Positions 21,293-22,375 of a DNA stretch of 34,580 bases are shown here, piece after piece (position 1 is the first letter of the stretch; each line of letters starts with the position of its first letter). Both the position numbers and the translations under genes were made by a program. This stretch comes from an uncultured Alphaproteobacteria bacterium (GTDB taxonomy: Bacteria > Pseudomonadota > Alphaproteobacteria > RF32 > CAG-239). The notes beneath the pieces are model-generated. The model was not told the origin of the DNA. It did not search any database and saw only the letters and a program-made list of their open reading frames with translations. The DNA lies in assembly GCA_944390265.1 (NCBI GenBank), contig CALXPK010000026.1, positions 1-34,580 of the forward strand, written 5' to 3'.

Positions 21293-21369
21293 GTACCCGT
21301 AGCTCAGTTGGATAGAGTATCGGCCTCCGACGCCGAGGGTCGTGGGTTCGAATCCCCCCGGGTACGCCA
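21293..21369 (+). tRNA. tRNA-Arg (anticodon CCG)
   Basis: A 77-base cloverleaf. Acceptor GTACCCG/CGGGTAC is perfect and the CCA end is encoded (21367-21369). The anticodon stem TCGGC/GCCGA is perfect around loop CTCCGAC, giving anticodon CCG (reads CGG). The D stem has a G10-U25 wobble. In the T stem GTGGG/CCCCC, position 50-64 is a U-C mismatch, which is unusual. A 21-bp terminator hairpin follows immediately, and copies of the 3' end recur downstream. Confidence 0.95.
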
Positions 21370-21414
21370 TAAAAGAAAAAAAGGGCTGTTTATCAGCCCT
21401 TTTTTTCTTTTATG
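21368..21414 (+). terminator. 21-bp terminator hairpin fused to the tRNA-Arg CCA end
   Basis: A perfect 21-bp inverted repeat (21368-21388 with 21394-21414), loop TTTAT, core GGGCTG/CAGCCC and a seven-T run. Its left arm begins inside the encoded CCA. Confidence 0.9.
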
Positions 21415-21477
21415 TTGAGTAGCTGCGGGTTTCGAACCCACGAGGAAGTGGTTCGACTAGGAGGAGAGCTGGAGAAA

Positions 21478-21507
21478 ATCAAATAACCGATGCTCCGGTT
21501 ATTTGAT
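21478..21507. repeat. 12-bp perfect hairpin in the tRNA-Arg repeat region
   Basis: ATCAAATAACCG (21478-21489) and CGGTTATTTGAT (21496-21507) with a six-base loop. No T-run follows, so it is not a typical terminator. Confidence 0.8.
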
Positions 21508-21532
21508 GACGACAGGTGAAGTTTTGTTATTG

Positions 21533-21560
21533 AGCAAGCAAAGTGTGAGGTTTGCTTGCT
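21533..21560. repeat. 10-bp perfect hairpin in the tRNA-Arg repeat region
   Basis: AGCAAGCAAA (21533-21542) and TTTGCTTGCT (21551-21560) with an eight-base loop. Confidence 0.75.
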
Positions 21561-21691
21561 TAATTTAAAAAACGAATGACCGCAGCGCCTTAATTTTTGT
21601 GCTACAAAAATTTAGAAGCCAGAAGACGGGAGTATGCCGGTGAGGGCAAAGCCCGAGCGACGACGAAGCGGCGACGAAGGAGCCCATCTTT

Positions 21692-21763
21692 CCGGGTACG
21701 CCATAAAAAAGCCGTCTGTGAAGGACGGCTTTTTTATTATGGCTATCCGGGTGGAAAGAACCC
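21692..21763. repeat. tRNA-Arg 3'-end module, copy 2
   Basis: Begins with CCGGGTACGCCATAAAA, identical to the tRNA-Arg acceptor end plus flank (21358-21374), continues into the terminator-like hairpin GCCGTC/GACGGC (21705-21735), and ends in TATGGC...CCGGG, an imperfect mirror of the left side. It matches copy 3 over its full length except one A in the A-run. Confidence 0.9.
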
Positions 21764-21883
21764 GGGTTCGTTCTTGCTTGTAAGTTCGCAAGCTCACTAA
21801 CTGCGCTGCGGTCACTTGATTTGTAACGCTTTATCGGCGGCGTTATCATTGGCCTTAAAGCTAACAAATCTGCGCCTTTCGTT

Positions 21884-21910
21884 GAAATAATCTCCACCGG
21901 AGATTATTTC
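21884..21910. repeat. 12-bp perfect hairpin in the tRNA-Arg repeat region
   Basis: GAAATAATCTCC (21884-21895) and GGAGATTATTTC (21899-21910) with a three-base loop. Confidence 0.75.
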
Positions 21911-21923
21911 TTCCTTAAGCCCC

Positions 21924-21994
21924 CCGGGTACGCCATAAAAAGCCGTCTGTGAAGGACGGCTTTTTTATTATGGCTATCCGGGTGGAAAGAACCC
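21924..21994. repeat. tRNA-Arg 3'-end module, copy 3
   Basis: The same module as copy 2: acceptor end CCGGGTACGCCA, A-run, GCCGTC/GACGGC hairpin with T-run, and mirrored TATGGC...CCGGG. Here the acceptor end is preceded by CCCC as in the true tRNA, so the match to tRNA-Arg is slightly longer than in copy 2. Confidence 0.9.
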
Positions 21995-22024
21995 ACTCGT
22001 GGGCTCGCTCTTGCTTGTAAGTTT

Positions 22025-22375
22025 TTATTCTTTGATAAAAGGTTTTACGAAGCGGTCAAATTTGTGCTCGTTGTTTTTAGACCAACCCATGACGTATTTG
22101 TCTCCCATGCAAAATAGCGGGGTGCCTAACTTTTGACCCAGATTGAATTTTTGACCGCAGGCCTCAAAAAGTTTGTAACCTTCCGCCTGATAAATATCGA
22201 CCTTGGTCATGTCTAAATCGGGATATTTTCGGTTGATATATTCCATGGCATAGTGACAATAAGGACAGCCGTCATAAAAGAAAAAATAAATTTTGTTGTT
22301 GTCAATTTGAGGTTGGTTATTGCAACCGCAGATAAAACTGACAAGCACTAAAAAAGCTAAAATATGTTTTTTCAT
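22025..22375 (-). CDS. Glutaredoxin-like lipoprotein with CPYC motif
   Basis: A 116-residue exported protein. The N-terminus is a lipoprotein signal with a lipobox near FICGC, so Cys ~18 should be lipidated. The rest is a thioredoxin-fold unit: IYFFFYDGCPYCHYAMEYI with the glutaredoxin-type CPYC, then LGTPLF containing the conserved cis-Pro, and a C-terminal helix. A periplasmic, membrane-anchored thiol-disulfide role is inferred. Two extra cysteines (EACGQK, LFCMGD) may also matter. The gene ends beside the tRNA-Arg repeat region. Confidence 0.8.
   Translation of the reverse strand: MKKHILAFLVLVSFICGCNNQPQIDNNKIYFFFYDGCPYCHYAMEYINRKYPDLDMTKVDIYQAEGYKLFEACGQKFNLGQKLGTPLFCMGDKYVMGWSKNNEHKFDRFVKPFIKE

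Follow-up and report, generated by a model that had tools for sequence, protein, structure and literature searches.

Tandem copies of tRNA 3′ ends in a family of gut Alphaproteobacteria look like a new sort of tRNA-anchored mobile DNA

Introduction

tRNA genes are classic landing sites of mobile DNA. Genomic islands integrated at these genes have been defined in Islander (PMC4383910), and island derivatives composed of attachment sites only are known as CIMEs, with composite accretion (terms used in PMC7563491 and PMC5704250). Among short palindromic repeats, the REP/RAYT (PMC3733652) and the enterobacterial RU/MITE (PMC2759123) families have been described.

The stacks of short cassettes reported here share several features with tRNA islands and CIMEs, namely an insert that regenerates the 3′ part of the tRNA, a displaced 3′ fragment at the far end, a breakpoint of the T-loop type and accretion in tandem. 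Unlike these, the cassettes measure about 180–270 bp, are almost always gene-less and always devoid of an integrase, and occur at about a third of the tRNAs; a mirrored T arm and a structured core also set them apart. Integron arrays likewise consist of tandem units joined at a hairpin-forming site, with an occasional single gene per unit and one anchored end; here, however, the anchor is a tRNA gene, the attC-type motif GTTRRRY was present at 1 of 33 junctions only, and no dedicated integron integrase was established. One family of cores, termed element E, is short, non-coding, hairpin-rich, dispersed and of an alphaproteobacterial lineage, as are Rickettsia palindromic elements, REP/RAYT and RU/MITE repeats, but it inserts at GGG, leaves no target duplication and is concentrated around tRNAs (its sequence was compared with described families through Rfam). 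By mechanism, the cassettes most closely resemble tRNA islands reduced to their attachment sites and, by form, a cassette array.

Searches of one open-access library, outside which most subscription journals lie, found no description of such tRNA arrays. We know of no smaller units with the capacity to regenerate a tRNA, and they appear to crowd the landing sites of an entire bacterial family, mostly empty and sometimes carrying one gene. If this is true, they would form a natural progression leading from islands down to bare attachment sites, might supply new gene cassettes and would cause assemblies to break at tRNAs.

Organization of the tRNA-Arg(CCG) locus

The window, that is, the whole 34,580-nt stretch of DNA that was analysed, is contig 26 of the host genome (G000), which comprises 1.47 Mb in 77 contigs and is 86% complete. 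ARAGORN locates an intact tRNA-Arg(CCG) gene at positions 21293–21369 of the plus strand, neighboured by rpmB (L28, identified with Pfam) and a small glutaredoxin-like ORF. This ORF (22025–22375, minus strand) encodes a small predicted lipoprotein with a CPYC motif, and its glutaredoxin-like match is weak (E 0.0036, below the Pfam cut-off).

An earlier note on this DNA had described the 3′ end of the tRNA as occurring three times in direct order, each time followed by a terminator and a mirrored T arm, and both statements were borne out. The sequence CCGGGTACGCCATAAAA of the tRNA is repeated in direct order at 21692 and 21924, and 21706–21763 is identical to 21937–21994 over 58 nt. The mirrored T arm at 21427–21443 pairs with 21340–21356 (94% over 17 nt), and mirrors are also situated 3′ of copies 2 and 3.

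Judging from the distribution of junctions, the downstream copies start from the T loop of the tRNA, at about position 58. Terminator hairpin 1 (21368–21414) is a perfect 21-bp inverted repeat that takes in the last bases of the tRNA. It is followed by mirror 1 (21415–21443, minus strand), a degenerate reverse complement of the tRNA 3′ part comprising T arm and acceptor strand, which was recognized by inverted-repeat matching and mirror statistics. The end of this mirror and a forward copy of the 5′ strand of the T stem (CGAACCCAC..GTGGTTCG) form a small hairpin at 21433–21455. Comparison with the ortholog in the congener G001 revealed a core of type 2 whose left part (21444–21468, plus strand) and right part (21624–21691, plus strand) are split by a nested copy of element E (copy 1, 21469–21623, plus strand; R1 match at 21514–21623, 56.7 bits). 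The G001 ortholog presents the empty site, as GGAGGAGAG-GC-AGACGGG reads uninterrupted there.

tRNA 3′-end copy 2 (CCGGGTACGCCA; 21692–21703, plus strand), found as a direct-repeat match, runs into terminator hairpin 2 (21703–21737), an inverted repeat whose sequence is unlike that of hairpin 1, and then into mirror 2 with its small hairpin GAACCCGGGTTC (21740–21769, minus strand). E copy 2 lies beyond it in reverse orientation (21772–21919, minus strand; left flank GGGGGG; R1 match of 99.7 bits, E 2e-26). Copy 3 (CCCCCCGGGTACGCCA; 21920–21935, plus strand) precedes terminator hairpin 3 (21935–21968), identical to hairpin 2, and mirror 3 with its small hairpin GAACCCACTCGTGGGCTC (21971–22005, minus strand). 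A truncated remnant at 22009–22023 (minus strand), recognized by a direct-repeat match and by its sequence, represents the 3′ end of a third E.

The insert restores tRNA-Arg(CCG) and leaves a displaced 3′ fragment, as in tRNA islands. Two ORFs of 110 and 67 aa span the array without a Pfam match; no domain-bearing ORF was found in it, and Pfam analysis of its ORFs revealed no integrase gene. The spacers, which had been described as gene-less and hairpin-rich, are not featureless, because the dispersed E elements sit in them.

Stacks are associated with about a third of the tRNA genes

BLAST searches of the host genome located paralogs of the spacers adjoining Arg(ACG), Ser(CGA), Val(TAC), His(GTG), Pro(GGG) and Pro(CGG), and further ones adjoining Asp(GTC), Val(GAC) and a Gly-like tRNA. 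All tRNAs of the host genome and of the congeners G001 and G004 were then surveyed for a second occurrence of their own 3′ end in the 700 nt that lie downstream. Such a copy followed 27 of 94 tRNAs (one of the 27, a tRNA-Ala of G000, being merely followed by an adjacent tRNA gene), as against 13 of 2712 mismatched pairs of tRNA and downstream region, which makes it about 60 times commoner than in the mismatched pairs. Seven of 33 tRNAs carried one in two other genera (G015 and G017), and none of 13 did in genomes of other families. In 37 of 39 downstream regions, the best match of the mirror was to its own tRNA. The observation is therefore confirmed to exceed chance, and about a third of the tRNA genes in these related gut bacteria carry such stacks.

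The array is not confined to the Arg(CCG) locus. Its module lies beside many tRNA genes and matches the adjacent one, a point that the earlier note had proposed to check, and it is not conserved base by base among relatives: the number, type and orientation of the units vary at the same tRNA. At locus L070 of the host genome (contig C20, 4155–4229), ARAGORN reports Ala(GGC) on a glycine-type body whose tRNA score is lower than any other in that genome; this tRNA may be decaying or may have changed.

Each unit follows one order: tRNA positions ~58–76 with the CCA end, terminator hairpin, degenerate mirror of T arm and acceptor strand, forward half of the T stem, core and next tRNA copy. Among 33 measured units, again including the neighbouring tRNA gene at G000 Ala, identity with the tRNA has its left limit at precisely -19 relative to the CCA end, which is position 58, in 11 and between -25 and -15 in 29. 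Unit length is mostly 176–272 nt. Terminator and mirror together form one long hairpin, which is perfect in some genomes. The tRNA-derived parts are specific to their locus; the cores are common to many loci, dispersed and found in both orientations, and they fall into several types with no mutual relation. Cores of types 2 to 5, which bear no relation to E, agree with it in T-loop junction, mirror and duplication, and orthologs of the Arg(CCG) array in other genera of the host family display the same architecture with different sequences. Rfam covariance models gave no match to the core up to E 1 in five loci and none at the gathering score in eight others.

Three readings had been offered for the Arg(CCG) array. 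Repeated duplication and loss of whole tRNA genes finds no support, as only positions ~58–76 recur. A tRNA-derived repetitive element describes part of what was found, the spacers belonging to a dispersed family beside many tRNAs and each unit matching its own tRNA. Nested attachment sites is likewise apt in part, since the T loop is the starting point of the copies, just as it is of displaced 3′ fragments in tRNA-integrated islands, and genes lie between the copies in some sister arrays.

Cassette integration versus local amplification

We propose that the cassettes are short integrative elements, each with an attachment segment that would copy the tRNA from about position 58 to the CCA end, together with the terminator. 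On joining the tRNA at the T loop, a cassette would regenerate tRNA and terminator and push the prior 3′ end to its own far side, and repeated joining, along with recombination between direct repeats, would produce the tandem array. In most cassettes, no more would be left than attachment segment, mirrored T arm and structured core, and a few would retain a gene. Element E, a hairpin-rich mobile repeat of ~150 nt that inserts after GGG and replaces 2–3 bases, forms a second layer, with one copy nested in a cassette of the window. We give this reading, in which att-only mini-elements restore the tRNA 3′ end, accrete in tandem, are probably moved in trans and carry E as a passenger, about even odds.

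Congeners differ at the same tRNA in the presence or absence of cassettes or in core type. At Glu(TTC) and Thr(GGT), a foreign terminator stands beside the tRNA and the native terminator at the far end, and the Glu(TTC) array of G001 contains a terminator of the Glu(CTC) type. Genes were found in units at two loci, all other units being gene-less; as for the empty sites, the comparison covers a small number of loci, and the genomes are metagenome-assembled, with many contigs that break off in these repeats. At tRNA-Thr(TGT) of G005 (locus L340, contig C9, 1289–3650), predicted ORFs of 222 and 196 aa lie between copies of the tRNA 3′ end at 1529, 2753 and 3630, with no family match in Pfam, NCBIfam or PADLOC, and a unit at tRNA-Trp of G001 contains a predicted ORF of 118 aa; none of these ORFs has a convincing family match. 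The lack of genes, which had been held to argue against islands, loses weight in view of these units. A general polarity, with accretion always taking place beside the tRNA and bringing a foreign terminator, was also considered and set aside, the systematic comparison supporting it at some loci only.

At the Asp, Phe, Ser-GGA and His loci, proximal, distal and cassette-free terminators are equally similar. Terminators that equal the native one on both sides, seen at many loci, count against mini-elements, as local tandem or target duplication explains them just as well. Fold-back or template switching at the terminator hairpin could copy the tRNA 3′ part in both directions, creating the mirror, and unequal recombination could multiply the units, with E and other mobile repeats landing later in the non-essential tRNA fragments. 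This local amplification, which we consider possible at clearly less than even odds, would accord with the specificity of mirror and terminator for the host tRNA and with the long hairpin that the two form. An exact 53-bp duplication at Ser(GGA) of G004, noted by inspection, also fits it, but the mirror at that locus has clearly diverged from its tRNA, between flanking duplicates that do not differ at all, and hence cannot stem from that duplication. This divergence despite identical flanking repeats suggests that the mirror came with the insert. Local amplification is further opposed by the single T-loop junction shared by unrelated core types, and by gene-bearing units and foreign terminators, which require import. 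The mirror as such is explained by neither the mini-element nor the local-duplication model.

Integrase islands and candidate enzymes

Ordinary islands with PF00589 genes inside, which provide controls, were identified at tRNA-Met of G001 (copy at +8280) and at Thr(GGT) (+7217) and Thr(CGT) (+6393) of G004. The islands at tRNA-Met and at Thr(GGT) break at the T loop, and the limit |TTCTTGCCAGCGGCACCA of the G004 Thr(GGT) island is identical to that of the G001 Thr(GGT) cassette. This breakpoint, common to islands and cassettes, is what favours mini-elements moved in trans, and the movers would likely be tyrosine integrases, because resident islands of the same genomes use it. We infer site-specific recombination and mobilization in trans. 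Unusually large PF00589 proteins (about 490–635 aa) are encoded in G000:C2, G001:C5 and C15, G002, G004:C12 and C17, and G017:C3, two of them within islands of the T-loop type. At loci L341 and L342 (G002:C51, G004:C14), the 3′ half of tRNA-Thr(TGT) is followed by a cassette but not preceded by the 5′ half, and would seem to mark where an anticodon-type island bearing cassettes has its far end.

Further observations count against mini-elements moved in this way. No mirror was seen in the integrase islands, and G013 and G015, well assembled, rated 100% complete and both carriers of cassettes, encode no PF00589 proteins beyond two each, which are presumably XerC and XerD. G005 (81% complete) likewise encodes only two. 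Other families of enzymes were also sought. PF01797 (Y1 transposase; IS200/IS605, REP/RAYT, PATE) is absent from G003, G013, G015, G016, G017 and G010, among which G013, G015 and G016 carry E; the reverse transcriptase family PF00078 is absent from G000, G001, G004, G015, G016, G284 and G039; and the IS110/IS1111 transposase family PF02371 is absent from 9 of 9 genomes. No family-wide candidate emerged from PF00589, PF01797, PF00078 and PF02371.

More tentatively, the stacks might constitute a cassette system of a new class. Insertion would take place on the platform of tRNA T arms, mirror and core hairpins would be the cassette ends, a recombinase not recognized so far would be the enzyme, and cassettes with and without genes would compete for almost all tRNAs of the genome. 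Which enzyme moves the cassettes is a testable question that these stacks raise.

Element E, a dispersed repeat that inserts after GGG

Element E is about 150 nt long, is non-coding and contains three hairpins. The consensus of 33 aligned copies reads CTNGAGGA, hairpin H1, GACGACAGGCGAAG, stem H2, GTGACCGAAGCG, hairpin H3 and CTTACG..GCAAGA. A pattern scan of 84,980 species genomes yielded 79 stretches, mostly from uncultured alphaproteobacterial or proteobacterial MAGs, many of them from rumen or gut; scattered matches in unrelated taxa were taken as chance. About half of the matches lie near a tRNA on the same stretch, and others in other repeats and terminators. Carriage by phages was also considered, but an exact pattern scan of 2.9 million viral contigs found no match. 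With a covariance model, 19 copies were detected in the host genome, most of which adjoin tRNAs or lie at the edge of a contig together with a tRNA 3′ end. The class was surveyed in 289 genomes, with stricter filters that may miss weak relatives, and E was found only in the host family and in a single genome of another family (G039), where the same architecture adjoins a tRNA 3′ end.

E follows a G, usually GGG: G occupies position -1 in 31 of 33 inspected copies, the remaining two having a called start that is displaced by one base to the late side. The target sites include D-loop, anticodon-loop and T-arm positions as well as hairpins outside tRNAs, and an initial hairpin-only target rule was superseded by the GGG rule. 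Two comparisons with empty sites (the nested window copy against G001, and a G001 copy against a related sequence in G002) revealed that E replaces 2–3 target bases, with no target-site duplication, the criterion for MITEs. E also inserts outside tRNAs with no duplication at all and may therefore be distinct from the tRNA arrays, a point against the mini-element reading. Copies at different tRNAs can be nearly identical, the G000 Val(TAC) copy sharing 0.96 identity with G000 Pro(CGG) and 0.94 with G001 Pro(CGG).

The GGG preference, the clean insertions and these near-identical copies would suit a scenario in which E and the other cores are themselves the movers, as small non-autonomous transposons that prefer G-rich tRNA hairpins and survive only where a partial tRNA duplication spares a functional copy, arrays being a by-product of selection. 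We regard it as improbable, since the T-loop junction, mirror and duplication are common to cores of types 2 to 5, unrelated to E, and the tested transposase families PF01797 and PF02371 are missing in several carriers.

Stem H2 showed 39 cells changed on both sides, compared with 10.2 in shuffles, and paired in 92% of cells, compared with 27–58% when slid. These values support a covarying stem, short of proving one, because the sequences are related. H1 is nearly pure Watson-Crick (458 pairs versus 3 G-T and 3 A-C), as counted with a stem finder that favours such pairs, a composition that fits inverted repeats in DNA, as local amplification would have it, rather than a drifting RNA. RNAalifold recovered one helix only from the full alignment, because H1 occupies two registers. 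The covarying stem and the terminator hairpin immediately 3′ of the tRNA might together point to a selected function, with trailer, mirror and core forming RNA structures through which the transcription, 3′ processing or termination of tRNAs would be controlled. Such a role is very unlikely given that units are present or absent among congeners, cores occur in both orientations, H1 stems contain almost no G-U pairs and E is also sited away from tRNAs.

E also occurs 5′ of tRNAs (Pro, Ala, Arg) at loci L225, L211, L218, L230, L250, L261 and L262 and at L073 (7911–8023). It lies there at D-loop or anticodon-loop positions of an incomplete tRNA copy, and the intact tRNA follows. Finally, loci L203 and L266 (RUG10838) contain many repeats of a separate short-palindrome family (CTCGTGTAC..GTACACGTCG), and E is inserted after some of them.
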